Below are positions 2 to 28,131 of a DNA stretch of 32,026 bases, piece by piece (positions within the stretch are counted from its first letter, which is position 1; every line of letters starts with the position of its first letter). The notes beneath the pieces were generated by a model. The model was not told where the DNA came from and ran no database searches. It saw only the letters and a list, made by a program, of their open reading frames with translations. The position numbers and the translations under genes are program-made. The stretch is taken from positions 1 to 32,026 of the forward strand of contig LSCG01000017.1 in assembly GCA_001577055.1 (NCBI GenBank), written 5' to 3'. The stretch comes from Fidelibacterota bacterium TCS56. Its GTDB lineage: Bacteria; Fidelibacterota; Marinisomatia; Marinisomatales; TCS56.

Positions 2-3000
2 TACCTCGCTCCTTTTTTCAGCATCGGAGATTCAGGCTGCACGGATTGTGATGGCTATATCGAACTTTACCTTAATGATGCCTTTATTATGAATGTCACG
101 GCCGGCTCACCGGCCCTGGTCACCGGTCTGACCGACGGACCTTATTTCCTGGAAATGGTAGCGGTGGATCCTGATGGAAACGAATTTATTCCGGCTCTGG
201 GGGATACAACTTCATTCTTCGTTGATATTATGTCAGTTGCCGATCTTTGTCCCGTTACCGAACTGGAGGTCACTTCCAGTGATACTCGTAATTATCTGGA
301 ATGGAACGAACCGCGCGGTTCCGGTGGTATCGGCGGCGGTGATTATTTAATCAACTCAATTCCATACGATGATATTAATACCAATGTCGGCATGGGCGAT
401 GATTGGGATGTCACGTTCGGTGACGGTGATGATGTTGCCTATACTTTTAACACCAATTCTCCCATAACGCTGGAGATTTCGCTGTGCGATGTTACCACCG
501 ACTATGATACAAAACTTGAAGTATTCACCATCACCGACGATGGGGACACTGTTTCCCTGGCTTATGATGATGACGGACCAGTTGGATCATGCCCCGAGAG
601 TCCAGCAACCTATACACCAAGCTTGCTCGAAGATGTCCTATTGGATCCGGGTCAGTATTATATCGTTGTGGACGGGTTCAGCGGTGCCACTGGTAATTAC
701 GGCTTGCATGTCATTGAAGCTACCCGGGCGACTCCGACCATGTCTGATATAAAAGAGACCTTGGCTCGTGAAGCAGAAAAATCACTCGCCAGCGGTTATT
801 CGCAAGAGCAGGTGGATTTATGGTGGGCTGAATTTCGCGCTGACAGCCGGCGCACGGTTTCGCGCGAAATTGATCCTGCCTGTGGCGTATTCATCGATTA
901 TGCGATTTATGATGCAGTCATGAATACGTTAGTAGCCACCGCAGACACCACCATTTTTGAGCATTCCGGCCTGACCAATGGCCAGGAGTACTGTTACTAT
1001 GTCGTGGCCACCTATCAGGAAGGGGACGCGGTTGCCAGTCCAACTGCCTGTGCTATACCGGAAGCTTTTGTACCGGCCCCGCCTACTAATGTGGCTGGTA
1101 TCCCACTGGATGAAGAAGTGTTTGTCACCTGGACCAATCCCTGGGTTCCCCAGCTTGGTATTCCTTACGGTGAAGATTTCGGCTCGGATTTGGTCGATAT
1201 GTGGACTTCCGACGAAGAGAGTAACTGGTCAATCAGTACCACTGTGGGCAATCCGGCCCCGGCGGCTCATTTCTCCTGGACACCTTCACAGGATAATTAT
1301 GATCAATCCATGTATTCACCGATCATACCGGTGGACGGCACGATGGACCTGGAACTAGTCTTCGACTATTATCTATCCAGTTACAACGACAACGGTCTGG
1401 AATTTCTGACGATTGAATATCTGGATGGTGGCAGTTGGGTCGAGATACTGGAATTGTCCAACACCATGGATATTCCCTGGACAACCTATACCGATACGCT
1501 TTACGGTATTACCGGCAGCATACAGTTGCGTTTACGGGCGCACGGTACTGATTCGTTCGATATCAATAACTGGGATATCGATAACGTTGCTTTGACTGAT
1601 GTAACTACCACCCGCGATATGACCGGTTCCATGGTAGTTGCCCTTAATGAATACATTGCCGGCACCCGCCAGTTTATCAATTTTAACGCCATTCAGACTG
1701 CTCCCGACACGGCCTATTGTGACAGCTTTGCCGTCACTTTCCCGGCCGGAGTGGTAATCAACGCCGCCGGCCCGGAACTGTTAGGAGCAGGTAGCAGCAC
1801 CTATCCTCCTGAAGCCTTTAATGGTATTGACGGCCAAACCATTTCCTGGGGTACTGACAACAACGACGCTGCCGGCGGTATTTATGGAACGCTCGAATTC
1901 TGGGCTGACTTGACGATCGGTGATACCTTCAGCGGACCGATCACCTGCAACTTTCATTTCTCCGATGATGGCTGGGACATACCCCTGGATGTTGACAGCA
2001 CCTTTAATATTAATGAACGGGTTCTGCAATATGGGGATTTCCTGGGATTCAATGTTTACGTTGATGATGATGTGACGCCAACTAATGATTTTGTGATTCC
2101 CGATCCTGGTTATCTGGTGACTGGCTTAACTAATGGTCAGGCCTACGATTTCAACGTCACCGCTGCATATTATCCCAATCTTGAAAGTACACCCGTAACC
2201 GCAACCGCTACACCTACCTGGTTGTATGGCGATGTTACCGGCGTGATCACAGATCCGGATGACAATCTACTGGACAGCGCCGAAGTCAGCATCGGCGGTC
2301 TAATGACTCTGACCGATGCCAGCGGTGAATATTTGCTGGAAGGTCTTGAACCTGGAATCCATACGGTAAACGTTAATGCCGAGGGATTCGACCGCACCGA
2401 AGCTGAAGTGGAGATCTTTGCCCAGGAAGTTCCAGTGGTACAGGATTTCACCCTGATTCCCAAACTGGGTAAGCCCGGTGGACTGGAAGCCTTTGGTGGT
2501 GATCTGGCAGTGGATTTAGAATGGAACAGCCCCAGCGACCTTGAAATTGTGGAACTTGGTTATGATGACGGCACCTGGGAAACATCCATCACCGGTGGCG
2601 CCGATGATATCGAAGTTTCCGTTTTATTCACTCCCGGTTCAGCCGGTGAATTACTGGGTGGACGGTTTGTATTCTCTTCAGTGGGACAGGCTGGCTATAC
2701 CCTGGATCCGGTGGAGATTCGTGTCTATTCCGTCGGTGGCGATGGTATGCCCGGTACCTTACTCTATGTTGCGCCGACTTACCTGTCAGTAGTCGAGGAA
2801 GATGTATGGGTTGATGTTGATCTTTCCGGAGCAGGTATCAGCTTTGAAGATACAGGCTTCTACCTGGGTTATCGCTTTACGACGCCTGATGGACCCGGCA
2901 CTGCTCGCGACGAAGACAATTATGTTTATGGACACAGCTACGTATTAGTGGGCGGCGCCTGGACTGAAACCGGCGATCTGGGTCTCCCCGGTAATTTCAT

Positions 3001-4270
3001 TATCCGGGCAATTGCCGGACTGGAGAATACTGCCCGCGGCAGCGCTCCCCAGGAATTGGTTGCCGGCGCTCAGGTTACGAGCCAGAATTCCGGCGCCACA
3101 ATCAACGGCACATCCACCGATGCCGGTCAGTACGTATTAACCGGTGAACAGGTTATCACACACACGATAAATAATAATCGGGAAGATATGCTTACCGGTT
3201 ATAATGTTTATCAGTTGCGTGCCACCGGTGACACCCTGATAGCTACCACTACTGATGTGGATACCTTCGCTACAATTTCCGTAGCCCAAAACTATGCGGA
3301 CTACTGTTTCGCCGTTAAGGCGATCTGGGATACCGATCTTTATGATACCCTGGAATCCAAATATTCCAATGATGCCTGTGCCACAACCTACAAATTCGGT
3401 GATATCGACTTTGATAATACGGTGACGGTTACTGACCTGTCGCTGGTGGTTGATTTCGTACTGGGTGTCAATATGCCCACCTTCGAGCAAGCACGTGGTG
3501 CGGATGTGAATCGCGACGGATTTCTTAACATCCAGGATATTATCCTGATCGTGGACATTATCTACGGTACTCCCGTGGCGCGTACATCCGCCGATGCCGG
3601 TCAGGCTCTGCTGGATCTGCAGATTAACTCAGATCGCACCCTGGAAGTGATACTGAGTGCCGATGGAGCCGTCCGCGGATTGCAATTCACCATTGAAAAC
3701 GATTTGCAAGCCCTGGAGCTGGTCTCAGCCAGTTTGGCCGGTGCCAATGCCGGCACCGAGCTGGCCAGTCATGTGAATGATGATAATTCTACTACCTATA
3801 TTGTCTACCGCACCGATGGCCTGGCCCTGGATCTCTCCGGTGAGGCCCTGGTACGGATTTCCTTGCAGGCCAACCGGCGTTTGAATCAAACTGCCAATCT
3901 GCAACTGAGTGGTTCACAGGTAGCGGATATGCAGGGTAACCTGGTACCGGTGGTTGAAAAATCCACTGTCTATGATCTGGCCGGTGTACCCACCGTCTAT
4001 GCTTTGCATCAGAATTTCCCCAACCCGTTCAACCCCACAACTGATATTCAGTTTGATTTACCGGACGATGGAATGGTGCAGTTAATGATATATAATATAA
4101 CCGGACAGCAGATACGCACGCTGATTAGCGACAATATGGAAGCCGGTTTTCATAAGGTAAGATGGAATGGAATGAACGATCTTAATCAATCAGTGGCAAC
4201 CGGAGTCTATTTCTACCAGTTGACCGCCGGTGATTTCCATGCCACGAAGAAGATGGTAATCTTGAAATAA
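2..4270 (+). CDS. Large secreted modular protein with dockerin and T9SS C-terminal sorting domain (5' end cut by window)
   Basis: The frame is open from base 2, so the gene starts before the window. 1422 residues are visible, and alignment of the GCTDCDG motif with the downstream paralogue suggests about 50 residues, including the signal peptide, are missing. Visible modules (residues counted from base 2): a GCTDCDG-containing beta domain; a pre-peptidase-C-like beta sandwich at about 115-240; a MAM/cleaved-adhesin-like domain at about 388-533 ending in 'DIDNVALTD'; a beta region at about 540-690 absent from the paralogue; a carboxypeptidase-regulatory-like domain at about 739-825; a block shared with the paralogue at about 853-1006; a fibronectin-III-like segment; a two-loop type I dockerin at about 1133-1190 (DVNRDGFLNIQDI); a cohesin-like beta sandwich; and the T9SS/FlgD-like sorting domain from about 1330 (YALHQNFPNPFNPTT to the terminal KKMVILK). 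Inferred to be exported and attached to the surface or released. Ligand and function are unknown; no catalytic domain was recognised. Confidence 0.88.
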   Translation, partial: YLAPFFSIGDSGCTDCDGYIELYLNDAFIMNVTAGSPALVTGLTDGPYFLEMVAVDPDGNEFIPALGDTTSFFVDIMSVADLCPVTELEVTSSDTRNYLEWNEPRGSGGIGGGDYLINSIPYDDINTNVGMGDDWDVTFGDGDDVAYTFNTNSPITLEISLCDVTTDYDTKLEVFTITDDGDTVSLAYDDDGPVGSCPESPATYTPSLLEDVLLDPGQYYIVVDGFSGATGNYGLHVIEATRATPTMSDIKETLAREAEKSLASGYSQEQVDLWWAEFRADSRRTVSREIDPACGVFIDYAIYDAVMNTLVATADTTIFEHSGLTNGQEYCYYVVATYQEGDAVASPTACAIPEAFVPAPPTNVAGIPLDEEVFVTWTNPWVPQLGIPYGEDFGSDLVDMWTSDEESNWSISTTVGNPAPAAHFSWTPSQDNYDQSMYSPIIPVDGTMDLELVFDYYLSSYNDNGLEFLTIEYLDGGSWVEILELSNTMDIPWTTYTDTLYGITGSIQLRLRAHGTDSFDINNWDIDNVALTDVTTTRDMTGSMVVALNEYIAGTRQFINFNAIQTAPDTAYCDSFAVTFPAGVVINAAGPELLGAGSSTYPPEAFNGIDGQTISWGTDNNDAAGGIYGTLEFWADLTIGDTFSGPITCNFHFSDDGWDIPLDVDSTFNINERVLQYGDFLGFNVYVDDDVTPTNDFVIPDPGYLVTGLTNGQAYDFNVTAAYYPNLESTPVTATATPTWLYGDVTGVITDPDDNLLDSAEVSIGGLMTLTDASGEYLLEGLEPGIHTVNVNAEGFDRTEAEVEIFAQEVPVVQDFTLIPKLGKPGGLEAFGGDLAVDLEWNSPSDLEIVELGYDDGTWETSITGGADDIEVSVLFTPGSAGELLGGRFVFSSVGQAGYTLDPVEIRVYSVGGDGMPGTLLYVAPTYLSVVEEDVWVDVDLSGAGISFEDTGFYLGYRFTTPDGPGTARDEDNYVYGHSYVLVGGAWTETGDLGLPGNFIIRAIAGLENTARGSAPQELVAGAQVTSQNSGATINGTSTDAGQYVLTGEQVITHTINNNREDMLTGYNVYQLRATGDTLIATTTDVDTFATISVAQNYADYCFAVKAIWDTDLYDTLESKYSNDACATTYKFGDIDFDNTVTVTDLSLVVDFVLGVNMPTFEQARGADVNRDGFLNIQDIILIVDIIYGTPVARTSADAGQALLDLQINSDRTLEVILSADGAVRGLQFTIENDLQALELVSASLAGANAGTELASHVNDDNSTTYIVYRTDGLALDLSGEALVRISLQANRRLNQTANLQLSGSQVADMQGNLVPVVEKSTVYDLAGVPTVYALHQNFPNPFNPTTDIQFDLPDDGMVQLMIYNITGQQIRTLISDNMEAGFHKVRWNGMNDLNQSVATGVYFYQLTAGDFHATKKMVILK
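2541..3030 (+). repeat. Copy 1 of a segment shared by the tandem paralogues
   Basis: This stretch encodes GYDDGTWETSITGGADDIEV and the following ~150 residues. It matches 6733-7222 in the next gene closely at DNA level (I estimate around 80% by eye), including runs such as CCATCACCGGTGGCGCCGAT. The flanking N-terminal modules are much more different, so the repeat marks a conserved core after duplication. Confidence 0.8.
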
Positions 4271-4303: not shown

Positions 4304-7300
4304 ATGCTAAGAAAAGCACTAATGCTATCCTTATTTGCTGTAATCTTGTGCGGATCTGTGGTCATGGCTCAATACGATCGTGACGAGGTCTTGCAGATAA
4401 CTTATCCGACAACCGGGTTGGTGATTGGTGCCGATTCGGTGGAAGTCGATTTTAATATCGCATCATACTTCACTCTGGGTGAACCGGGATGTACGGACTG
4501 TGACGGCTACCTGGTAGCCTCAATGAATGGACTACCTGTTGGTGAAGCCTATGCCGATGCTCCTTTCGTGGTTAGTGGTTTAACCGACGGGTATTTCGTA
4601 TTCATGCTGGAAGCCGTGGACCCCACCGGCGCAAGTTTCATGCCTGCCGTCTGGGACACGGTGATGGTTTCAGTAATGTATGAGGAAAGCTTCTGTCCAC
4701 CCGCCGAATTATCGGTCAGTTCCAACACCCAATACGAGGCCCTGGTGTTAAACTGGGTACCGCCGGCCGGTACCAGTACCTTTGAAGATGTTTATGAGTC
4801 TTTTGACGAAGGACTGCCTGAGGACTGGACTGTCATAGACGGAGGTGCCTCGGCTGATACCTGGTTCTGGACTACTGACGACGCTGGCAACACATTGGAC
4901 GGAACACCATTCATATTTGTCGACAGTGACGCAGCCGGTATTGGTGTGGCGATGGATGAGATAATTGAAACTCCAGTTGTCAATACCACCGGATTGATGG
5001 AATTGTATCTGTCCTTTGACCAATACCTGAACTATCTTAGCGGCGAAATCTGTGATGTTGATGTGTTTGATGGCTCAGACTGGGTGAATGTTGCCAGCTA
5101 TACTACTGATATGGGCTCGTGGACTTTACCGGACCACCAGCTGATAGACGTTTCGGAATATGTCAATGTGGATTTCAAAGTGCGATTCCATTACTTTGAA
5201 GCGAACTGGGACTGGTATTGGGCCGTGGACAATGTCATGCTCACAGCTGAAGCACCGGAAACGACTTGGATGTACGTTTACGAACTTACCCCCGATGGCT
5301 GGGCCGCCCAGAATATGACCAAAGAGGAATTTCGGGCTGCCTATCCCCAGGGATTAACCACCGAGCAGAGGATTGACATGTCCACCGTTGAACTGATTAC
5401 TATTCCTCAGCGTGAAGACATTCTGTCCTGTGGCAACCTCACCGGCTACGACATTTTCAAGGAAAATGATTTTCTGGCCAATGTTGACACCAATTTCTAT
5501 GTTGACGAAGCCGTGACCGTGGGAACACCATACTGCTATTTCGTACAGGCAGTCTACGACAGTTCCGACAGTGGTGTAATGGTGAATTCTGTCTCCACTG
5601 ATACTCTGTGCGGTACTCCTGAGTTTTATGTCCCAGCCCCAATCACCAATCTCTCCAGCTTTGCGCTGGATGAGGAAGTGGTACTCAGTTGGTCCGTCCC
5701 GGGTACACCCACCTATCTGTTTATGGAAGACTTCAGTTTTGGTTTGCCACCGGACTGGACCGTCGTAGATGGTGGTAATACCGCGGATTCCTGGGTAACC
5801 CCATCCCCGCGTCCGTTAGCTGGATTTGGCGATTATTTGTTCGCAATCTGCGATTCGGATGAAGCCGGAAGCGGCGATGTAACCCTGGATGAAAGCCTGA
5901 TTATGCCAAGTCAGGATTTCACCGGATATGCCAACCCCCATTTGCAGATTACTACTTATTATAATGATATCGCAGCCAATGATTCGGTGGAATTTGCAGC
6001 TATTGATGTAAGTATCGATGGTGGTACCAACTGGACCAACCTGGTCTTATGGGATGATGATATAGGTACCGCTACCGCCCCTGCAATTGAGTTTGTTGAC
6101 CTGTCAGTAGCTGGAAATGAAAGTGATGTTCAGATCCGTTTCCGCTATGCCGACGGTGGGGCCTGGGCCTGGTATTGGGCCATTGACGATGTAATTGTGT
6201 TGGATGGTCCACCACCAACAGCCGGACGCAATGAAGAAGGTGATCTGGTACAGTACAATATCTATGTTGATGGTACTCTGGTTGACTCTTCTGATATAAC
6301 AGCCGCCACAGTAACTGGTTTGACAAATGATGTCACCTATGACCTCGGTGTCACGGCCCTGTATTACCCTGCTTATGAAAGTGATCCGGTGGCAGTAAGC
6401 GATACACCGATCTGGCTGTACGGGGATATTGAAGGCGTGATCACTGATCCGGGTGGCAACACTCTGGACAGCGCTGTCGTGCGGGCCGGAGGACTGTCTG
6501 ATACCACGGAAGCCGATGGTTATTATTTCCTTAAAAATCTGAATCCCGGTAATCAGACCGTAACGGTAAGCCGCGACGGTTTTGACGGCAGCAGCGCCGA
6601 TGTTGTGGTTACCGCCGTAGAAGCAGCCGCGGTCCAGGATTTCATGATGATTCCCAAACTGGGTAAACCGCGGAATCTCGTTGGTTATGGCGGCGATATG
6701 GAAGTCAATCTGGCCTGGAATTCTCCCGGTGGAATGGACATCTTCGAACTTGGGTACGACGATGGTACCTGGGAAACCTCCATCACCGGTGGCGCCGATG
6801 ATATTGAAGTAGCCGTGAAGTTTACTCCGGGTTCAGCGGGTGAATTAGTCGGCGGGCGCTTTGTATTCTCATCGGTGGGACAAACCGGCTATACCCTTGA
6901 TCCGGTGGAGCTGCGCGTTTATACCATCGGTGCCGATGGCATGCCCGGCGATCTGGTCTGGGTAGATGACAGCTTTACCGAAGTACCCGAGGAAGACGTG
7001 TGGATCGATATCGATCTTTCCGCCGCCGCCGTCAGCTTTGACGAAACCGGATTCTTTTTGGGCTACCGTTTCACCGCCGATGGCGGTCCCGGTACAGCCC
7101 GTGATTCCGACGGTTATGTTTATGGACATAGCTTCGTAAAGGTTAGCGGCGCCTGGACTGAAGCTGGTGACCTGGGCTTCCCCGGTAATTTCATCATCCG
7201 GGCCATGGCCGGCCTGGCAGACGCCCCACGCGGCTCGGTGCAGGAATTGGTGACTACCGCCGCAGCGTCTGAAGAATTCAGCAAATCGCCCCTCAATCTC

Positions 7301-8470
7301 ACCCAATTACCGGATGTGAATACCACACCATTCAATATTACCGGCAACCGGGTACAAACCTTCAGCCGGAATACGGACATTGGTGTATTGATTGGGTACA
7401 AGGTTTTCCAAATAGAAACCGGGGGCGACATCCTGGTGGCCGAGACTACCATTGATGATACCACTGCCACCATCACCGTTCCCGCCAATTACGTGGAATA
7501 CTGCTACGAAGTGAAGGCCGTCTGGGATACGGATGTTTACGACACGCTGGATTCCAAACCGTCCAATTCAGCCTGCGTAGTGCCATACCTGCCGGGCGAT
7601 ATTGACTTTGTGGGCGGTGTGGATATTCTGGATGTGTTACTGGCGGTAGATTTTGCCTTGGGAACCGCGTATCCGACGCCGGATCAGTTGCGAGGCGGTG
7701 ATATCAATCGCGATGGTGTCATAAATATCCAGGATATTATTATGATCGTGGATATCATTTTCCCGCCATCCGCAGCCCGGACTGTAGCCGATGCAGCAGC
7801 GCCGGCAATTCTGGAACTGGCCTATGATGCCGACCGCGGCTTGACCGCTAATCTGGAATACGAACACGCCATTCGCGGTATTCAGTTTACCATTAATTAC
7901 GATGCCCGGCGTCTGAGCCTGGCAGAAGCCCGATTGGCGGCTGTCAGCAGTGACGCCGTTTTCGAGGCCCGTGAAACTGAACCGGGTAAATTGACCATCC
8001 TGGCTGCTGATATATCCGGCGATGTATTGAATCTGGCTGGTAATTCGCTGGTGACGATTCCCGTGAAGGTCCAGAAGAATACCCGTGATGCCATCAGCGT
8101 CACCCTGGATAATATCACGCTGGTGGGCGCCGACGGTCAAGCGATTCCGACGCTGGATAAATCGTTCAGCATCGACATTAAGACCGTCCCGCTGACTTAT
8201 GCTCTGCATCAGAATTTCCCGAATCCGTTCAACCCCACCACCGATATCATGTTTGATATCCCCAAGGATGGATTTGTGAATCTCACCATCTATAATCTGA
8301 CTGGTCAGAAAGTAAAGACCCTGGTCAGTCGCGAGCTGAATGGCGGATACCATGAAGTTCGCTGGAATGGTACGAACGAGCATGGTGCGGCAGTTGCTAC
8401 CGGCGTGTATTTCTATCGTCTGGAAGCCGGCAGCTACCAGGCCACCAAGAAGATGGTCCTGCTGAAATAA
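4304..8470 (+). CDS. Large secreted modular protein with two MAM-like domains, dockerin and T9SS sorting domain
   Basis: Complete 1388-residue paralogue of the preceding gene. It has a signal peptide (charged MLRK, hydrophobic stretch, likely cleavage VMA|Q after residue 22). In order: a GCTDCDG beta domain (Cys63, Cys66); a MAM/cleaved-adhesin-like domain at about 160-316 (from 'ESFDEGLPEDWTV' to 'WAVDNVMLTA'); a helical linker; a fibronectin-III-like part; a second MAM-like domain at about 472-634; a carboxypeptidase-regulatory-like domain at about 703-788; the shared 'GYDDGTWETSITGGADDIEV' block at about 817-970; a fibronectin-III-like segment; a dockerin at about 1098-1154; a cohesin-like domain at about 1168-1290; and the T9SS sorting domain at about 1295-1388 (YALHQNFPNPFNPTT, ending KKMVLLK). 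The first dockerin loop (DIDFVGGVDILD) lacks the third acidic/Asn ligand; the second (DINRDGVINIQD) looks intact. Probably a surface adhesin or scaffold-like protein; the target is unknown. Confidence 0.9.
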   Translation: MLRKALMLSLFAVILCGSVVMAQYDRDEVLQITYPTTGLVIGADSVEVDFNIASYFTLGEPGCTDCDGYLVASMNGLPVGEAYADAPFVVSGLTDGYFVFMLEAVDPTGASFMPAVWDTVMVSVMYEESFCPPAELSVSSNTQYEALVLNWVPPAGTSTFEDVYESFDEGLPEDWTVIDGGASADTWFWTTDDAGNTLDGTPFIFVDSDAAGIGVAMDEIIETPVVNTTGLMELYLSFDQYLNYLSGEICDVDVFDGSDWVNVASYTTDMGSWTLPDHQLIDVSEYVNVDFKVRFHYFEANWDWYWAVDNVMLTAEAPETTWMYVYELTPDGWAAQNMTKEEFRAAYPQGLTTEQRIDMSTVELITIPQREDILSCGNLTGYDIFKENDFLANVDTNFYVDEAVTVGTPYCYFVQAVYDSSDSGVMVNSVSTDTLCGTPEFYVPAPITNLSSFALDEEVVLSWSVPGTPTYLFMEDFSFGLPPDWTVVDGGNTADSWVTPSPRPLAGFGDYLFAICDSDEAGSGDVTLDESLIMPSQDFTGYANPHLQITTYYNDIAANDSVEFAAIDVSIDGGTNWTNLVLWDDDIGTATAPAIEFVDLSVAGNESDVQIRFRYADGGAWAWYWAIDDVIVLDGPPPTAGRNEEGDLVQYNIYVDGTLVDSSDITAATVTGLTNDVTYDLGVTALYYPAYESDPVAVSDTPIWLYGDIEGVITDPGGNTLDSAVVRAGGLSDTTEADGYYFLKNLNPGNQTVTVSRDGFDGSSADVVVTAVEAAAVQDFMMIPKLGKPRNLVGYGGDMEVNLAWNSPGGMDIFELGYDDGTWETSITGGADDIEVAVKFTPGSAGELVGGRFVFSSVGQTGYTLDPVELRVYTIGADGMPGDLVWVDDSFTEVPEEDVWIDIDLSAAAVSFDETGFFLGYRFTADGGPGTARDSDGYVYGHSFVKVSGAWTEAGDLGFPGNFIIRAMAGLADAPRGSVQELVTTAAASEEFSKSPLNLTQLPDVNTTPFNITGNRVQTFSRNTDIGVLIGYKVFQIETGGDILVAETTIDDTTATITVPANYVEYCYEVKAVWDTDVYDTLDSKPSNSACVVPYLPGDIDFVGGVDILDVLLAVDFALGTAYPTPDQLRGGDINRDGVINIQDIIMIVDIIFPPSAARTVADAAAPAILELAYDADRGLTANLEYEHAIRGIQFTINYDARRLSLAEARLAAVSSDAVFEARETEPGKLTILAADISGDVLNLAGNSLVTIPVKVQKNTRDAISVTLDNITLVGADGQAIPTLDKSFSIDIKTVPLTYALHQNFPNPFNPTTDIMFDIPKDGFVNLTIYNLTGQKVKTLVSRELNGGYHEVRWNGTNEHGAAVATGVYFYRLEAGSYQATKKMVLLK
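6733..7222 (+). repeat. Copy 2 of the segment shared by the tandem paralogues
   Basis: Counterpart of 2541-3030, in the same order relative to the carboxypeptidase-regulatory-like domain upstream and the dockerin downstream. It ends near the NFIIRAMAGL residues. Confidence 0.8.
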
Positions 8471-8577: not shown

Positions 8578-9972
8578 ATGCGAAAGAGATTGCTAATATT
8601 GCTGGGGCTGCTGAACGGATTGGTTTTTTCGCAGAATTCGATTGTCGATCAGTTCAGCCAGGCGCTGGCGGATGTGGCCGAACAGGCCAATCCGGCGGTG
8701 GTAACGATTACTACGGAAAAAGTGTATAAAGCCCGTGATCCCTATCAGGGTACGCCGTTTGAGGATTTCTTTAATTTTCACTTCAATGTACCGGAGCAGG
8801 AATTTCGGGGCCGGGCGCTGGGCTCAGGCGTAATTGTCGATGCCCGCAAGGGATATATACTGACCAATAATCATGTTATCAACGGTGCTGACGAGATCAA
8901 AGTCCAATTGATCGACCGGCGGGTAATCGAAGCGGAAATTGTCGGTACCGATCCCAAATCGGATCTGGCGGTTCTGCAAATAAAAGCTAAAAATCTGACG
9001 GCCCTGAAATTGGGTGATTCTGACAAGCTGCGTGTGGGGGAATGGGTTTTGGCCATTGGCAGTCCCTTTTCCCAGAACCTGAGTCACACGGTGACGGCCG
9101 GGATTGTGAGTGCCCTTGGTCGCTCAAACATCATCCCCGGAGCTAATGATTATGAAGATTTTATTCAGACCGATGCGGCAATCAATCCGGGGAACAGCGG
9201 TGGTGCCCTGTTGAATGCGCGCGGCGATCTGGTGGGCATCAATACCGCCATTGCCACCGGTGGACGGGAAAGGTCCAATCGCGGGGTGGGTTTCGCGATT
9301 CCCTCTAATATGGCCCGCAAGGTGATGGATGATTTGATCGACAAGGGTTACGTAGTGCGCGCCTGGATGGGGGTTTATATCCAGCCGGTTGAAGACCAGA
9401 TGGCCCGGGCCCTCGATCTTGATACACGCAACGGCGCCATCATAAGCCAGGTGGTGGAAGACAGCCCTGCGGATAAGGGCGGGATCAAATCCGGCGATGT
9501 GATTGTGGAATTCGATGGGATTGAAATTCATAATCCCAGTCACCTGCAAAATGTGGTTTCCTCCACCGAGCCGGGGAAAAAGGCGCGCGTGGAAGTTATT
9601 CGCGATGGCCATACAAAAAAGTTAACCGTAGTACTGGAGGAACTCCCCCAGGATGATGATGTTATGGCACGGCGTCCCACGGTCAATGATGATGAATTAG
9701 GGCTGGAAGTACAGAATGTCAGCCGGGCATTGGCCGAGAGATTTGACCTGGACAGGGATATTGAGGGGGCGGTGGTGACCGGCGTACGGCGCAGCAGTCC
9801 CGCGGCACGTGCGGGAATTCGCCCCGGTGATGTGATTGTAAGGGTTGATTCCCATGATGTGGATTCGGCTGATGAATTCTATAAGCTCAGCAAAGTCAGT
9901 GAAAAGGAAGCGATTTTATTGCTGGTTCGCCGGGGGGAGGCGGCGCGATTTTACGCTTTGGAGCTGGATTGA
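8578..9972 (+). CDS. degP: HtrA/DegP-family periplasmic serine protease with two PDZ domains
   Basis: 464 residues, typical for DegP/DegQ. A signal peptide (MRKR plus hydrophobic run, ending near FSQ) directs it to the periplasm, where HtrA proteases degrade or hold misfolded envelope proteins. The chymotrypsin-fold triad is visible: His99 in TNNHV, Asp129 in SDLAV and Ser207 in GNSGGAL. Two PDZ domains follow: the first at about 250-350 (GAIISQVVEDSPADKGGIKS) and the second at about 370-464 (GAVVTGVRRSSPAARAGIRP). The ATG has a GGAGA Shine-Dalgarno 6 bases upstream. The gene stands alone between two terminators, so it is probably monocistronic. Its position after two giant exported proteins fits envelope quality control, but that link is inference. 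DegQ or DegS-like naming is possible; the two PDZ domains favour DegP/DegQ. Confidence 0.95.
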   Translation: MRKRLLILLGLLNGLVFSQNSIVDQFSQALADVAEQANPAVVTITTEKVYKARDPYQGTPFEDFFNFHFNVPEQEFRGRALGSGVIVDARKGYILTNNHVINGADEIKVQLIDRRVIEAEIVGTDPKSDLAVLQIKAKNLTALKLGDSDKLRVGEWVLAIGSPFSQNLSHTVTAGIVSALGRSNIIPGANDYEDFIQTDAAINPGNSGGALLNARGDLVGINTAIATGGRERSNRGVGFAIPSNMARKVMDDLIDKGYVVRAWMGVYIQPVEDQMARALDLDTRNGAIISQVVEDSPADKGGIKSGDVIVEFDGIEIHNPSHLQNVVSSTEPGKKARVEVIRDGHTKKLTVVLEELPQDDDVMARRPTVNDDELGLEVQNVSRALAERFDLDRDIEGAVVTGVRRSSPAARAGIRPGDVIVRVDSHDVDSADEFYKLSKVSEKEAILLLVRRGEAARFYALELD

Positions 9973-9991
9973 CAGATATTCTTTTTGGCTG

Positions 9992-10020
9992 GAAAAATCC
10001 TCCCACCGGGAGGATTTTTC
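9992..10020 (+). terminator. Rho-independent terminator after htrA
   Basis: A perfect 13-bp stem, GAAAAATCCTCCC (9992-10004) with GGGAGGATTTTTC (10008-10020), has a 3-base ACC loop and ends in a T-run within the 3' arm. It lies 19 bases after the htrA stop. Confidence 0.88.
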
Positions 10021-10049
10021 TTATCTACCGGATAGTCGCTATTAATTGA

Positions 10050-10114
10050 CAGTGGATAGTCAATACCGCTAACTTCCCGGGCTTAAATCATTGATAAATT
10101 TGGGTTATCCACTG
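10050..10114 (+). promoter_or_regulatory. Inverted repeat in the ileS leader, possible RNA structure or operator
   Basis: CAGTGGATA (10050-10058) is perfectly complementary to TATCCACTG (10106-10114). Two G-U pairs and one C-G pair extend this to a 12-bp potential helix (10050-10061 with 10103-10114). GGATAGTC also occurs as a direct repeat at 10030-10037 and 10054-10061. A TTGACA at 10046-10051 could be a -35 box, but no convincing -10 follows. No T-box signature was seen. The role is unknown; this may be an ileS regulatory leader, an operator or chance. Confidence 0.3.
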
Positions 10115-10182
10115 CATGACCGTGGTGTGATAGCCGAATCTGACGCGCTCGGAATAATTGTTGATAGGACTATACTGAACAG

Positions 10183-13100
10183 ATGATCAAAAAAGCTGAT
10201 CCCAAGATTGACTTCATTAAACTGGAACACGATATACTCGCATTCTGGGAGCAGAACTCTATATTCGAAAAACGGGTGACTGCCAATCAGGGTAAGCCCA
10301 AATGGAGTTTTCTGGACGGCCCTATTACGGCCAATAATCCCATGGGTGTTCACCATGCCTGGGGTCGGACTCTAAAAGATCTCTATAATCGGTACAAGGC
10401 TATGACCGGCCATGAACTGCGCTACCAGAATGGTTTCGACTGTCAGGGGTTGTGGGTTGAGGTAGAAGTCGAAAAAGAGTTGGGTTTCAAATCCAAGCGC
10501 GATGTGGAAAACTACGGGATCGAAAAATTTGTAAATCTCTGCAAAGAGCGCGTCCATAAATACTCCGCTATACAGACCCAGCAGTCCATCCGTCTGGGCT
10601 ATTGGATGGACTGGGATAATTCCTATTACACCATGTCCGATGAGAATAATTACACCATCTGGTCATTTCTGAAAAAATTATTCGAGCGGGGTAAAATTTA
10701 CCGCGGTGCCGATGTGGTACCCTGGTCAGGGAAGTCCGGTACTTCCTATTCACAGATGGAGATTATCGAAGGCCGTAAGCTGGTGGCTCACGAGGCCGTA
10801 TTTGTACGCTTCCCGTTGAAAAACCGCGAGCGGGAATTCCTGCTGGTCTGGACAACCACTCCCTGGACGCTGACCGCCAATGTAGCGGCGGCGGTCAACA
10901 CCCAACTGGATTATGTAAAACTGGAAGCGGCCGACGGTGAAATATATTATTTTGCCGCTGATAACCTGGAATTCCAGCGGCTCGAAAAACAGTTCGGGGA
11001 TAAGAAGCAATGGGTCGAGGGTGTGCCCAAATTGAAGACGATTGCCCAAATTTTCAAAGAGCGAGGCGGTTATAAAATTGCCGGCACCGTGAAAGGCGCC
11101 GAAATGGTGGGCTGGGAATATCAGGGGCCGTTTGACGATCTGGAAGCCCAGAATAAAGCCGGCGGTTTTCCTTTTACCAAAGACGACCTGGCGGAAGCAG
11201 GAATTGCCGGGGTGGACTGCCACCGGGTGATCGATGGCGGCAAAGACGGCGAAGGCCAGGATATTGTGTTGGCCGGGGAAGGTACCGGTATCGTTCATAT
11301 CGCCCCCGGTTGCGGTGATATTGATAATAAAATTGGTCGTCAGTTGAACTTAGTGGATATCGCTCCCTTGGACGCCGAGGCCAAATACATCGATGGTTTC
11401 GATTGGCTGACCGGCAAGAGCGCCACCGATAAAAATACGGCCACGGAAATAATTGAGCGCCTGAAGGAAACGGGCTTTCTGGTACATGTGGAACGCTATC
11501 CCCACGTGTATCCCCATTGCTGGCGTTCCGGCGACGAACTGGTTTTCCGCATGGTGGATGAGTGGTATATCAAGATGGACTGGCGCGACGAGATCAAGCA
11601 GGTTGTTGACCGGATCAACTGGCTGCCGGAGTGGGGGCGCGACCGTGAGCACGAGTGGCTGGATAACATGGGCGACTGGATGATTTCCAAGAAACGCTTC
11701 TGGGGTCTGGCCCTGCCGATCTGGACATTTGAAGACGGCAGCTATTATGTAGTTGGTTCCAAAGAAGAATTAGCCGACCTGGCTGTGGAAGGCTGGGATG
11801 AATTCGAGGGCCAAAGCCCGCACCGGCCCTGGATCGATAAGGTCAAAATTCGCCACCCGGAAACAGGATTGATCGGTTCACGGATTCCCGATGTGGGCAA
11901 TCCCTGGCTGGACGCCGGAATCGTACCCTACTCGACGATGAAATATATCAGCGACCGCGATTACTGGCGGCAGTGGTTCCCGGCTGATTTCATCACCGAA
12001 TGTTTCCCGGGACAGTTCCGCAACTGGTTCTATTCCCTGTTGGCCATGTCCACTGTCATGGAGAATGAAGCGCCTTTCAAGACACTGCTGGGCCATGCCC
12101 TGGTCAAGGATGAGACCGGCCGGGACATGCATAAATCCTGGGGAAATGCCATCTGGTTTGATGACGCCGCGGAGAAAATGGGCGTGGATGTTATGCGTTG
12201 GATGTATGCCGCCCAGAATGTGGAACACAATCTGTTGTTCGGCTATGGACATGCCGACGAGGTGCGCAAACGGTTAATTACCCTGTGGAATTCCTACTCC
12301 TTTTTCGCTACCTACGCTGCCGTGGATAAATTTGATCCAACGGCCCGGTCCATGACCGATATAAATTTGACGATTCTGGATAAGTGGATATTGTCAAAGC
12401 TGCACCAGTTGATCAACGACAGTCATCAGAGTATCGCAGATTACCGCACCGACCGCCTGATGCGTAAAGTTAACCTTTTCCTGGAAGATTTATCCAACTG
12501 GTACATCCGGCGGAATCGCCGTCGATTCTGGAAAAGCGAGAATGATGACGACAAGACTGCCGCCTACCAGGTGTTGTATGAAGTGCTGGTTAATTTTATT
12601 CAACTGCTGGCACCGGTCCTGCCGTTCGTAACCGAATACATTTATCAGAATCTGGTGCGCGGTGTCAATCCACAGGCGCCTGAGAGTATTCATCTCTGTG
12701 ATTATCCCCGGGCTGACGATTCCGTTATTGATTATTCGCTGATGGATCAGGCGGGCGCCCTGCGGAAAGTGGTGGAATTGGGCCGGTCCGCCCGTAATCA
12801 GGCCAATCTGAAAATCAGGCAGCCCTTATCCGGTCTGAGCTTTGTTTTAGCGGATGACCAACAGTCACGGTTCATTCTGGATCATCAGGATGTTATTCTG
12901 GATGAATTGAATGTCAAGCAAATCGAACGGACCAATTCCGTCGAGCACTTGCTCCAATACCGGTTTAAGCCCAATTTTCCCGTACTGGGGCCAAAATACG
13001 GCAGCGCGGTCGGTAAAATCCGTGGCGGCCTTTCGGCCGTGGCCGATAATGAAATCATGAAATCTCTGGATTCCTCCGGACAGTTCCCGGTTATCGTGGA

Positions 13101-13485
13101 TGGAAAAACCGTGTATTTAACCCGTGAAGACTTTATTATTGACCAGGAATCGGTATCCGGTTACACGGCCACATCCGATGGCGATTTAACGGTTGGGCTA
13201 GTGACGGAGTTAACTGAAGAATTAATCAGTGAAGGCCTTGTGCGCGATGTCATAAGACAGGTGCAGATTATGCGAAAAAAGGCTAAATTTGATGTAGAAG
13301 ACAGGATCAATATCTATGGTGATTTTGCCGGTCCTGTTGGCGAAGCGATAAAGGAAAATCAGGAATATTTCTTAAGCGAAACTTTAACCCAGAAGTTGAT
13401 ACCAGAATTACGATCTGGAGAGTATCGAGATACCTTTAGCATTCGGGAATGGAAATTTGAGATTGCTATTGAACGTGCTGGTTAA
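10183..13485 (+). CDS. ileS: Isoleucyl-tRNA synthetase, IleRS2-like, with swapped HIGH motif
   Basis: Charges tRNA-Ile with isoleucine in the cytoplasm. The 1100-residue class I synthetase begins MIKKADPKIDFIKLEHDILAF, a normal IleRS start. The HIGH signature is replaced by GVHH (residues 55-58, within NPMGVHHAWGR), and KMSKS by DMHKS (648-652, within GRDMHKSWGN). The CP1 editing domain is present (TTTPWTLTAN, then the GTGIVHIAPGCGD segment), as are the anticodon-binding and long C-terminal regions (RQVQIMRKKAKFDVEDRI). Length and C-terminal region resemble the eukaryote-like IleRS2 type rather than E. coli IleRS1. Published work on Bacillaceae IleRS2 linked a GXHH swap to extreme mupirocin resistance; here that is inference from the motif. 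No Shine-Dalgarno is visible before the ATG. It heads a cluster with TraR/DksA, lspA, rluD and xer. It is the only IleRS in the window, and nothing suggests it is an accessory copy. Confidence 0.95.
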   Translation: MIKKADPKIDFIKLEHDILAFWEQNSIFEKRVTANQGKPKWSFLDGPITANNPMGVHHAWGRTLKDLYNRYKAMTGHELRYQNGFDCQGLWVEVEVEKELGFKSKRDVENYGIEKFVNLCKERVHKYSAIQTQQSIRLGYWMDWDNSYYTMSDENNYTIWSFLKKLFERGKIYRGADVVPWSGKSGTSYSQMEIIEGRKLVAHEAVFVRFPLKNREREFLLVWTTTPWTLTANVAAAVNTQLDYVKLEAADGEIYYFAADNLEFQRLEKQFGDKKQWVEGVPKLKTIAQIFKERGGYKIAGTVKGAEMVGWEYQGPFDDLEAQNKAGGFPFTKDDLAEAGIAGVDCHRVIDGGKDGEGQDIVLAGEGTGIVHIAPGCGDIDNKIGRQLNLVDIAPLDAEAKYIDGFDWLTGKSATDKNTATEIIERLKETGFLVHVERYPHVYPHCWRSGDELVFRMVDEWYIKMDWRDEIKQVVDRINWLPEWGRDREHEWLDNMGDWMISKKRFWGLALPIWTFEDGSYYVVGSKEELADLAVEGWDEFEGQSPHRPWIDKVKIRHPETGLIGSRIPDVGNPWLDAGIVPYSTMKYISDRDYWRQWFPADFITECFPGQFRNWFYSLLAMSTVMENEAPFKTLLGHALVKDETGRDMHKSWGNAIWFDDAAEKMGVDVMRWMYAAQNVEHNLLFGYGHADEVRKRLITLWNSYSFFATYAAVDKFDPTARSMTDINLTILDKWILSKLHQLINDSHQSIADYRTDRLMRKVNLFLEDLSNWYIRRNRRRFWKSENDDDKTAAYQVLYEVLVNFIQLLAPVLPFVTEYIYQNLVRGVNPQAPESIHLCDYPRADDSVIDYSLMDQAGALRKVVELGRSARNQANLKIRQPLSGLSFVLADDQQSRFILDHQDVILDELNVKQIERTNSVEHLLQYRFKPNFPVLGPKYGSAVGKIRGGLSAVADNEIMKSLDSSGQFPVIVDGKTVYLTREDFIIDQESVSGYTATSDGDLTVGLVTELTEELISEGLVRDVIRQVQIMRKKAKFDVEDRINIYGDFAGPVGEAIKENQEYFLSETLTQKLIPELRSGEYRDTFSIREWKFEIAIERAG

Positions 13486-13502
13486 AATGAGTGAGGTATA
13501 AA

Positions 13503-13898
13503 ATGGCGAACAAAAGGTATTCAAAAACAAAACTGGAAGAATTCCGCACAGTTATCATGGGCAAAATGAATTCTGTGGCAGATGAAGTTGAAACCATTCA
13601 GGATGGAATCAATACCGGGAAAAATCCCAACGGTGCCATGTCGCAGGATGCGATCTACAGTGTTCATATGGCCGATGCCGGTACCGATTCCCATGAACGG
13701 GAAAAGAGTTATTTGCTGATGACGCGCGAAGAGAATTATTTCCGGAATTTATCAGTGGCCCTGGAAAGAATCGACACAGGTGAATTCGGTACCTGTACGA
13801 TTTGCGGGGAATTGATTGCTGAAGAACGGATGTTGGAAGTGCCCAACACCAATAAATGCGTAGCCTGCAAAAATAAAGAGAAACTTAATCCTGTATGA
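13503..13898 (+). CDS. TraR/DksA-family C4 zinc-finger regulator
   Basis: 131 residues from the ATG at 13503, which has GTGAGG 6 bases upstream. An in-frame GTG at 13491 is part of that Shine-Dalgarno and so an unlikely start. The N-terminal half is a predicted helical hairpin with an acidic tip (MADAGTDSHERE), as in TraR/DksA proteins that enter the RNA polymerase secondary channel. The C-terminus carries a four-cysteine zinc finger (CTICGE ... CVACK). DksA-like proteins modulate rRNA and amino-acid promoters with ppGpp, but whether this short family member does so is unknown. It sits 17 bases after ileS and its stop overlaps the lspA start (ATGA). The order ileS-traR/dksA-lspA recurs in Bacteroidetes, which supports both the call and the lineage. 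Confidence 0.9.
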   Translation: MANKRYSKTKLEEFRTVIMGKMNSVADEVETIQDGINTGKNPNGAMSQDAIYSVHMADAGTDSHEREKSYLLMTREENYFRNLSVALERIDTGEFGTCTICGELIAEERMLEVPNTNKCVACKNKEKLNPV

Positions 13899-25167: not shown

Positions 25168-28131
25168 ATGCTTCCGTCTCGACGGAGCGGCGCTTTTAAA
25201 TTGATCATTTTGGGCTTGGTGACGGTGTTGTTCTTCACCGTCAGTTGTGATTTTCAGAGTCCGGCCGATTTTGAAATGCCCACCTGGTTTATGGATTTGA
25301 ATATCCCCTTGCTCCAGGAGCGGTATCCCCTGGGCGGCATGGTGGATGATGAACAGATTTTTGCTACCTCAGATTCTCTGGGTATGCAGGTGGTTTTTGA
25401 AGGTACCCTGCCCGACACTTCCATTGATGAATCCTATCTGCAGGTGCCGGTCAATCAGAATATTAATTTTGCCCAGGATCCGGTTTATTCGCCTGACCTG
25501 GATTTTACCTTTGACACTTTGCTGACAGTGGAAATTCCCCTGGCTCCCGATGGCCAGTTCATGGATGTCAACCTGGATACCTTCGATGTTCCCTCGGCGG
25601 TGGATAAACAGATTTTTTCTGCCACCTGGAATCAGATCGCCAGCGCTTTTGACCAGCCGATCCAGATCGATATTGACATCCCCCAGGTGGATGAGAATGA
25701 TCTGCCTGAATTCATTACCTCAGTAGAATCGATTAAAATCAGCGGCGACACGGGCAGTGATTCCAGTCTTTTCGCCAGCTCGATTCATAATAATGGCCTG
25801 CCAACAGCCGTCACCGATGTGGAATTCAGCCTGCTCACCGATCTGCCCAGTCCGCAGGATACGCTGGCTTTCCACAGCAGGAACCGTGTCGAGAAAGACA
25901 GTATTTACGCCGAATCCACCTCGCTGGGCGATAAACATTTGGGGAGTACGATTCAGATCAATATGGGATTCGGGATCGAAGAAGAGACGGTGTTGGATAC
26001 GCTGGTTATCAAGGCCGGCGATTCAGTTAAAGTGGATTTGACGATTCGGGTGCGGATTGCCGGTGTGGATGAAGCGGTGGTCAATGTGGCCGAATATGAT
26101 TTATCACCGGAGATACCGGCGGTGGAATTCCCCTCTGATGTGGAGATTTATTCCGGCACCTTTAAGGACCCTTCGCTGGGATTCGGGATCAACGAAATTA
26201 CCCTGGAAAATCTGCAAAGCACCTATTTGTTCGATATTGATTTCACCATGGATTTTCGCAATTTCATTCCCCCGCCGGGCGACGATTCGGTCAAGATTCA
26301 AACCACCCTCAGCCGCGACAGCAGCGCCTTCGAACGCAGTTTTGATCTGGATGGCTACATTTTCGCCAATCCCGACACCGCCGACACCAACGCCCTTACC
26401 GAAATGGATGTGACCGTGTCGGCAATTATTCCCGAACAACAGGCATCAATTCCGCTGGATGGCTCCGAATTCGGACGCTTGACGCTTGATATTGCCGTCA
26501 ATGAATTGCATTTTGAATCATTGCAGGCCAACCTGCTGCAGGAATTCCCACCCACCGAACAGGAGATGACCGGCCTGCCCAAGGGGTTTTCCGGTATGGC
26601 TTTTACCGATGTGAAGATCGAGTTTATAATGCTGAACCAGATTCAGTTGCCGGTGGACCTTGATTTGGACATGATCGGAGTTAATACCTTCGGTGATTCA
26701 TCAGTGGTGCGGGTCCGGGCTCAGATGGGTAGTCCCGATAATGCCGCCGATACGATCAAGACCGTCATCCGCCTGAGCCGAGCAGGCACCACGACCCTGA
26801 TTTATGACAGCCCGGCCGATTCGGTCTGGAGCGACAGCACCAACTCGCCACCCGGTCCGGGTGAAGCCACCATTGTCGATTTGCTTTCTTTCAATCCGGC
26901 CACGATGGTGATTAACTCGGTGGCCCGCATTGATGGCCGGGGAACGATTGTAGTCGGTGCATCCATCGGTGGATCATATCGTTTGATCGCGCCGTTTGAA
27001 GTGCGCATGGCGCCCATGACCTTCATCCCGGTGAATGAATCGCCGTTGGAGGAATGGGATTATGAAATGCGCAATAAGATCCGCAGCGGTCTGCGCAGCG
27101 CCTCGGCCGTGGCCCGGGTGAAAAATCATATCCCGGTCGGCGGCGAAGTCTCAATTTTATTATCAAACCAGAGTCATTTCCCGCTGGATATGTCGCGGAA
27201 ATATCTGGACAGCATGGCGGTGGATCTGGGGATCGACCTGAGCGGCGGCGACAGCCTGTATGTGGTGACCGAATGTGAGCTGCTGGACCCGGTCCATGCA
27301 GATTCATCGATCTATATTTTCGATTTGATGTCAGACTTTGGTGATTGTGTTGACGGGGTAGCCTACTTCGTGAAATCATCGTCCAGCGGTATTGACACTG
27401 TTGTCACCTATGTGGACACCCTGTTGAGTATCGTTCTGCCGGATCCGACCCTCGATAATTATGATACTGAAAATGATGATCGCCGCGTAGTCAGCATCCC
27501 CGGTGATTTTACCACTTCCAGCGTCATTGATCCGGGTAAAATCCGGCTTATGACCAGTGCCGGCGACCACTACACCGCGCCGCGTTTTCACCTGAACGGT
27601 TCACCCATCGATCCCATTACCGGAGATTCACTTTCAGTGTTTTTATCCCTGAATGATTATGTGGATATTACCGCTTTCATGACCTTTGAAATCAGCAGTA
27701 CCGGCATGCTGGAATCGACACCCGGCGAACTGGTGCTGACCTATCCCAACGGTGGTGAAACCATTAACGTGCTGGATCCGGTAACGATTCGCTGGTTGAC
27801 GTATGGTGAAGTTTCCCGGATCAATATTGATTACGCCACCGGTACCGATCCTGAAATCGATGACGAAACCCGCTGGATTCCCATCCAGTCCAACTGGACC
27901 GCCATCGCTAACGTGGATTCGTTTGTCTGGGATGCCTCCACCGTGATTCAGAGTATTCCCACGGCCCAGCAGGACAGCGTCAGGTTACGAATTTCTAACA
28001 GCAGTGGTGACGTTTCCGACATGAGCGGCTGGTATTTTACCCTGGAAGAAATCTTACGTGCGCAAAAACTGGTAATTCCAAATCATATCATTCCCGTCTC
28101 TCCCAGGCAGCAGCAAGGGAGGCGACCGTGA
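25168..28131 (+). CDS. Large predicted outer-membrane lipoprotein of unknown function, Ig-like C-terminal domain
   Basis: 987 residues from the ATG at 25168. The frame is also open from TTG 25069 and ATG 25132, but 25168 gives a compact signal peptide: MLPSRRSGAFK, then a hydrophobic LIILGLVTVLFF, then an atypical lipobox TVSC with Cys27. Neither ATG has a clear Shine-Dalgarno, so 25132 (999 residues) remains possible. The mature protein is rich in Asp, Ser and beta-strand patterns, with repeated strand-turn segments of about 150 residues (for example around ESIKISGDTGSDS and EFPSDVEIYSGTFKDPSLGF). The last ~120 residues start with 'LVLTYPNGGETINV' and run to 'ISNSSGDVSDMSGWYFTL', resembling the Ig-like/GPI-anchor-like domain common in exported bacterial proteins. 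No catalytic motif recognised. It overlaps the next gene by 4 bases (GTGA), so it likely works with that barrel protein. Confidence 0.75.
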   Translation: MLPSRRSGAFKLIILGLVTVLFFTVSCDFQSPADFEMPTWFMDLNIPLLQERYPLGGMVDDEQIFATSDSLGMQVVFEGTLPDTSIDESYLQVPVNQNINFAQDPVYSPDLDFTFDTLLTVEIPLAPDGQFMDVNLDTFDVPSAVDKQIFSATWNQIASAFDQPIQIDIDIPQVDENDLPEFITSVESIKISGDTGSDSSLFASSIHNNGLPTAVTDVEFSLLTDLPSPQDTLAFHSRNRVEKDSIYAESTSLGDKHLGSTIQINMGFGIEEETVLDTLVIKAGDSVKVDLTIRVRIAGVDEAVVNVAEYDLSPEIPAVEFPSDVEIYSGTFKDPSLGFGINEITLENLQSTYLFDIDFTMDFRNFIPPPGDDSVKIQTTLSRDSSAFERSFDLDGYIFANPDTADTNALTEMDVTVSAIIPEQQASIPLDGSEFGRLTLDIAVNELHFESLQANLLQEFPPTEQEMTGLPKGFSGMAFTDVKIEFIMLNQIQLPVDLDLDMIGVNTFGDSSVVRVRAQMGSPDNAADTIKTVIRLSRAGTTTLIYDSPADSVWSDSTNSPPGPGEATIVDLLSFNPATMVINSVARIDGRGTIVVGASIGGSYRLIAPFEVRMAPMTFIPVNESPLEEWDYEMRNKIRSGLRSASAVARVKNHIPVGGEVSILLSNQSHFPLDMSRKYLDSMAVDLGIDLSGGDSLYVVTECELLDPVHADSSIYIFDLMSDFGDCVDGVAYFVKSSSSGIDTVVTYVDTLLSIVLPDPTLDNYDTENDDRRVVSIPGDFTTSSVIDPGKIRLMTSAGDHYTAPRFHLNGSPIDPITGDSLSVFLSLNDYVDITAFMTFEISSTGMLESTPGELVLTYPNGGETINVLDPVTIRWLTYGEVSRINIDYATGTDPEIDDETRWIPIQSNWTAIANVDSFVWDASTVIQSIPTAQQDSVRLRISNSSGDVSDMSGWYFTLEEILRAQKLVIPNHIIPVSPRQQQGRRP

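Follow-up and report, generated by a model that had tools for sequence, protein, structure and literature searches.

The window, the whole 32,026-nucleotide stretch analysed here, comes from a genome bin of 1.94 Mb in 161 contigs (87.6% complete) and opens with two tandem genes, P1 and P2, whose products are 52% identical across their last 751 aligned columns. The features at the locus are as follows.

2..4270, + strand: P1 gene, first paralogue, 1422 aa, 5' end truncated by the contig start
3398..3550, + strand: P1 type I dockerin (PF00404, Dockerin_1, over cut-off)
3401-3436 and 3503-3538, + strand: P1 dockerin calcium loops, ligands 1/3/5/12 complete in both
3596..3985, + strand: P1 cohesin-fold domain, assigned from the AF2 model and VIA
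4016..4261, + strand: P1 T9SS C-terminal sorting domain (TIGR04183, 39.7 bits, cut-off 23)
4304..8470, + strand: P2 gene, second paralogue, 1388 aa, signal-peptide-like start (by inspection)
7592..7747, + strand: P2 dockerin (PF00404)
7796..8188, + strand: P2 cohesin domain (PF00963, 29.2 bits, over the cut-off of 24.1)
8216..8458, + strand: P2 T9SS C-terminal sorting domain (TIGR04183, 35.1 bits, cut-off 23)
8578..9972, + strand: htrA/DegP-like protease gene directly downstream of P2, context outside the dockerin–cohesin dyad

Upstream of the dockerin, cohesin fold and T9SS tail, the body of P1 is adhesin-like, with carboxypeptidase-regulatory-like and FN3-like domains recognized by eye. P2 has two choice-of-anchor J stretches and a carboxypeptidase-regulatory-like domain, followed by dockerin, cohesin and T9SS tail. 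The initial annotation had placed the P1 dockerin correctly, the Dockerin_1 match covering 3398-3550, and its naming of both domains was borne out in part by profile searches. The P1 dockerin (7.1e-7 and 30.8 bits in the genome scan, 1.7e-5 and 25.4 bits in the protein scan, cut-off 22.9) and the P2 cohesin exceed their cut-offs, whereas the P1 cohesin, on its sequence alone, reaches 18.3 bits with PF00963 and falls under the cut-off of 24.1, and the P2 dockerin is over the cut-off in the genome scan (24 bits) and below it in the protein scan (17.1 bits). The calcium ligands of type I dockerin loops lie at positions 1, 3, 5 and 12, and all four are kept in each P1 loop (DIDFDNTVTVTD and DVNRDGFLNIQD). 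Loop 1 of the P2 dockerin has V in place of the position-5 ligand (DIDFVGGVDILD) and loop 2 is intact; three rows of the 32-row alignment, read by eye, have no D or N at this position.

AF2 models of the dockerin and cohesin together, built on input alignments of 17 rows (P1) and 32 rows (P2) that all come from one order, reached a pLDDT of 85.6 and pTM of 0.84 for P1 (window 3386-4003) and a pLDDT of 84.8 and pTM of 0.82 for P2. Foldseek returned 71 matches to the P1 model with E ≤ 0.001, led by 2jh2_A (E 6.0e-9), and VIA placed 2jh2_B first (Z 15.3, rmsd 2.4 Å, 126 residues aligned). Rows 1–28 of the VIA comparison are cohesins by title or entry, and row 29 aligns the dockerin half with the double dockerin 8x39 (Z 12.3, 63 residues, 1.5 Å). 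For the P2 model, VIA gave 6kgf_C as the top match (Z 15.6, rmsd 2.3 Å, 133 aligned) and again aligned 8x39 (Z 11.1, 62 residues, 1.3 Å). A PDB sequence search with the P2 cohesin alone yielded weak matches (best E 0.015), and the cohesin family profile reached E 1.4e-4, with the NagJ/GH84C cohesin (2jh2/2w1n) as the best match. Because the domain behind the dockerin is predicted to adopt a cohesin fold in both paralogues, the cohesin resemblance proposed in the initial annotation is not refuted, and its picture of one polypeptide with dockerin, cohesin fold and T9SS tail, present twice, holds on Pfam and TIGR04183 matches combined with the AF2 and VIA folds. Cellulosomal scaffoldins carry both cohesin and dockerin, so finding them together in a single chain is not unusual; the multimodular chain 3kcp is itself among the VIA rows for the P1 model.

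Among named organisms, the nearest relative of this dockerin–cohesin region lies in Candidatus Neomarinimicrobiota strain T3L19. Of 61 genomes, 33 were matched by profile A1 (E ≤ 1e-5), many rows being dockerin-only, and profile A3 matched 84 of the 245 genomes of the phylum at E ≤ 1e-15, some rows being dockerin-only or cohesin-only; rows with X letters (L051, L053, L054) were left out of A3 and A4. In 18 loci fetched around long profile matches we found 20 ORFs combining dockerin and cohesin (Doc-Coh ORFs), 18 of them with a T9SS tail and the other two cut by a contig end, and the order dockerin, cohesin, T9SS tail is kept in 18/18 complete orthologues. The htrA gene lies directly downstream of the Doc-Coh gene in 16 of the 18 loci (17 genomes), the other two ending before htrA, and ileS adjoins htrA wherever the stretch is long enough, except at L094, where none was detected. 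We also observed that the order Doc-Coh gene, htrA, ileS, dksA-like gene is conserved across the order (window 8578-13898; L091-L108). Chance EF-hand-like stretches were considered and ruled out, because 16 further genomes retain the architecture at one and the same locus. Mean entropy is 1.12 bits in the dockerin half versus 2.13 bits in the cohesin half, the dockerin half being the more conserved. Separately, at L070 (on a contig shared with L092), tandem paralogues at 4498-5109 and 8629-9243 have near-identical cohesin-like domains and different dockerins, as if the C-terminal part of the pair had been homogenised by gene conversion.

The pTM values of the two models suggest that each dockerin and its own cohesin are probably held in a fixed, intramolecular arrangement, the contacting surfaces not being given by pTM. 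By arithmetic under stated assumptions, a pTM of 0.84 over 206 residues implies an inter-domain error of around 2.4–4.5 Å, and two freely moving domains would yield a pTM of around 0.62–0.67. The linker block has a low pLDDT (61 in P1, 57 in P2), so the confidence of the models is not owed to a rigid linker. AF2 may still pack together adjacent domains that do not bind, and the predicted interface may be non-canonical. Taken together, the two models would have the dockerin of P1 and P2 sitting on its own cohesin, with the self-docked dyad forming a compact stalk, presumably stabilized by calcium, ahead of the T9SS tail. The incomplete first calcium loop of P2, judged from sequence, counts against this reading.

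Pairing between molecules is a different use of the same modules: the dockerin of one P1 or P2 would bind the cohesin of the next molecule, producing surface fibres or cell–cell links. Each of the two adjacent genes has both modules and tandem Doc-Coh copies recur in G001 and G010 as well as in the window, as such head-to-tail assembly would suggest. We nevertheless consider it very unlikely, given the single copy in the fetched stretch at most other loci and the fixed cis arrangement of the AF2 models.

Consistent with export of P1 and P2, their genome contains T9SS genes, including SprA (716 bits together with its neighbours in the frame) and a PorV-like gene (235 bits), as well as 50 matches to the T9SS tail (E ≤ 0.01); both proteins would be exported by this system and attached at the surface. 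A weak PorV family similarity was also seen within the window at 28128-29567 (19.5 bits, below cut-off). The same genome has six dockerin matches and three cohesin matches at E ≤ 1, two of the latter over the cut-off. Three of its enzymes carry a dockerin at the extreme C terminus, have signal-peptide-like starts (by inspection) and lack a T9SS tail; Pfam assigns them to PAD_porph (4.6e-51), the gingipain-like C25 family with its propeptide (2.6e-52) and the subtilisin-like S8 family (8.2e-28).

For a wider view we compiled 46 dockerin ORFs, the six from this genome and 40 from relatives, the latter chosen by hand down the list of A1's dockerin-only matches, not all of which were taken. The dockerin ends within 15 aa of the ORF end in 30 of them and 16–23 aa from it in five, and two run off the fetched stretch. 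Among the relatives, 32 ORFs end at or near the dockerin, and 30 were scanned with Pfam, L208 and L214 being left out: six matched C25, four LVIVD, three M14, three PAD_porph, three arylsulfotransferase, two S8, two esterase/hydrolase and one PGA_cap, and six had the dockerin alone or nothing. Two of the dockerin-ended PAD proteins, L209 (G018:C103) and L211 (G040:C124), have equal length and equal Pfam scores and come from genomes of different families, so that one of the pair may be a misbinned duplicate. Pfam detected neither a glycoside hydrolase nor a CBM on the 33 proteins with a C-terminal or near-C-terminal dockerin (three from the window's genome and 30 from relatives). Dockerins are also abundant elsewhere: in families f16–f19 of the same class, a dockerin-rich marine lineage, most of the small genomes (1.1-3.2 Mb) have at least 23-25 dockerins, scored among no more than 25 of roughly 60-220 candidates per genome, and in the best 30 dockerin loci across the phylum most dockerins stop 1-7 aa before the stop codon.

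Only 9 of the 46 dockerin ORFs carry a T9SS tail, and in each of the nine the dockerin is separated from the tail by a cohesin or a stretch resembling one. Besides P1 and P2, the window's genome contributes the redoxin-like protein L189, whose cohesin-like stretch was recognized by eye. The intervening domain is shortened or divergent in seven of the nine; six of these seven, combined as a profile and compared with the P1/P2 cohesin family, gave an hhalign E of 5e-7 and a probability of 92.5.

The two cohesin-containing paralogues are accompanied in the genome by L190, a T9SS-tailed protein of 1140 aa (Por_Secre_tail over cut-off) in which about five modules look cohesin-like by eye. In the whole protein Pfam reports Cohesin over the cut-off, with two stretches matched; cut out singly, one module scores 28.9 bits (over the cut-off of 24.1) and another 23.9 bits (just under), the others being recognized by eye only. 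The initial annotation had set the two proteins outside any cellulosome enzyme context, and this is not supported: the three dockerin-ended enzymes and the T9SS-tailed multi-cohesin protein are encoded in the same genome, and possible partners in trans therefore exist. Across 130 genomes of the order, counted with shared ancestry uncorrected, L190-like proteins occur in 52 (E ≤ 1e-30), and all 52 have a dockerin match (E ≤ 1e-4); a further 20 have dockerins but lack an L190-like match, and the remaining 58 lack both. The Doc-Coh gene was counted in 38 genomes, after leaving out G009, G028, G048 and G003 for partial or divergent A3 matches, and an L190-like protein is present in 37 of these 38.

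Our preferred reading, to which we give even weight for and against, is that P1 and P2 are adhesin-like proteins, exported by the T9SS and attached at the surface, in which a self-docked dockerin–cohesin dyad forms the final folded unit ahead of the tail, in a lineage that probably also docks in trans. In the latter process, secreted proteases and other enzymes that end in a dockerin rather than a T9SS tail would be bound by a receptor, for which the architecture and co-occurrence of the L190-like proteins, with their several cohesin-like modules and T9SS tail, make them the likely candidates. Against such a receptor stand the 20 genomes that have dockerins but no L190-like match, and the fact that a single excised L190 module exceeds the Pfam cut-off.

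The same components could also place P1 and P2 within the trans system as adaptor or anchoring scaffoldins, their cohesin taking the dockerins of enzymes and their own dockerin plugging into the multi-cohesin T9SS protein, the two-way fashion in which cellulosome adaptor scaffoldins work. We regard this as possible but doubtful. The co-occurrence in one genome of dockerins free at the C terminus with a T9SS-tailed multi-cohesin protein, the presence of the latter in nearly every genome with a Doc-Coh gene and the strong conservation of the dockerin half all point to such a role. However, the fixed cis arrangement predicted for both paralogues would block a partner if the binding faces are used in it, and the shortened cohesins of other Doc-Coh-T9SS proteins seem unlikely receptors.

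Against self-docking, as preferred here, cohesin folds in the phylum can serve roles other than dockerin binding. Genomes in which no dockerin matched at E ≤ 1e-4, G049 and G116 among them, encode stand-alone cohesin-fold lipoproteins of around 180 aa in which a lipobox-like cysteine was recognized by eye, and in genus g17, where dockerin matches are likewise lacking at that threshold, lipoproteins end in a cohesin; a cohesin fold here therefore need not bind a dockerin. Among these lone cohesin-fold lipoproteins we noted L131, L135, L145, L146, L150, L152 and L153 (ORFs of around 173-211 aa), several of which adjoin a gene whose product ends in a conserved 'QLR/QF..IALD/IPLD' stretch. Dockerin and cohesin of P1 and P2 could accordingly be generic calcium-binding and β-sandwich spacers that have lost mutual recognition, as the relatives with cohesin-fold lipoproteins and no dockerins, the divergence of the cohesin half and the calcium ligand lost in P2 would allow. 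The coupling of dockerin and cohesin in 9/9 T9SS-tailed dockerin ORFs and the high pTM of both models speak against this, and we judge it quite unlikely.

Exchange of C-terminal tags is seen among the C25 peptidases. Contig C90 of the window's genome (G000) encodes one C25 protein with a dockerin end (1214 aa) and another with a T9SS tail (1063 aa), which are 28% identical over residues 221–1151 and 44–955, respectively; the alignment stops shortly ahead of the dockerin (from 1157) in the first and close to the tail (from 973) in the second. A T9SS-tailed C25 paralogue was found in all five genomes fetched for this comparison, which were hand-picked (G000, G045, G027, G010 and G053). The dockerin of the long C25 ORF was observed directly on the same contig in G000 and G045, and was deduced for G027 and G053 from the equal ORF lengths of dockerin and C25 matches; in these four genomes, then, C25 paralogues with a common body differ in whether they end in a dockerin or in a T9SS tail. 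The two C25 genes lie around 14-16 kb apart (G000:C90, G045:C1, G027:C15, G010:C1 and G053:C21), the long form being 1211-1251 aa and the T9SS-tailed form 1052-1081 aa.

A further possibility is that in this lineage the dockerin acts as an additional sorting tag that can stand in for the T9SS tail and vice versa: in the periplasm, dockerin-ended gingipain-like and PAD-type enzymes without a T9SS tail would bind cohesins carried by T9SS cargo and leave with it, already folded and in complex, by way of the T9SS pore, the cohesin of P1 and P2 being capped by its own dockerin. We think this unlikely. The C25 pairs open to direct test the route by which tail-less dockerin enzymes pass the outer membrane and their destination. 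If our preferred reading is correct, a protease-based cohesin–dockerin display on T9SS cargo would explain how degradative enzymes are held at the cell surface, and the cis dyad would be a new small self-locking module.

Several known systems can be set beside this one. The best solved fold for P1 is the non-cellulosomal cohesin of Clostridium perfringens NagJ/GH84C (2jh2, 2w1n), which by the PDB titles is a module of a glycoside hydrolase, whereas the P1/P2 cohesin sits between a dockerin and a T9SS tail. The scaffoldins CipA and ScaA, like P1 and P2, have cohesin and dockerin in one polypeptide, and in scaffoldins the two bind in trans; P1 and P2 differ in having one of each module, adjacent, with a linker of around ten residues and a T9SS tail. 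For Neomarinimicrobiota (Marinimicrobia, SAR406), marine bacteria that are widespread and uncultured, we found no description of a dockerin or cohesin–dockerin system among open-licence PMC papers. The closest proposal concerns Ca. Stygibacter (Cloacimonadota), for which the section devoted to it in PMC8542988 proposes a cellulosome-like complex with C-terminal dockerins on GH18, GH57, S8/S53 and C25 enzymes that bear signal peptides, and with a tandem-cohesin protein of 3,755 aa that also has CBMs and ends in an attachment domain of the T9SS kind; the same paper cites the planctosome of freshwater Planctomycetes, a cellulosome-like structure for polypeptide degradation. As in that section, the lineage studied here has C-terminal dockerins on C25 and S8 peptidases with signal-peptide-like starts and a protein with cohesin-like modules and a T9SS-type C-terminal domain (L190); unlike there, the phylum is a different one and none of the 33 scanned dockerin proteins carries a glycoside hydrolase or CBM. 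The Doc-Coh-T9SS dyad of P1 and P2 does not appear in the Ca. Stygibacter section and is the part for which we found no published description among the open-licence papers. Given the Ca. Stygibacter proposal in another phylum, the present system is a variant of one already proposed, in which the dyad seems to belong to a surface system that resembles a cellulosome but is built on proteases.
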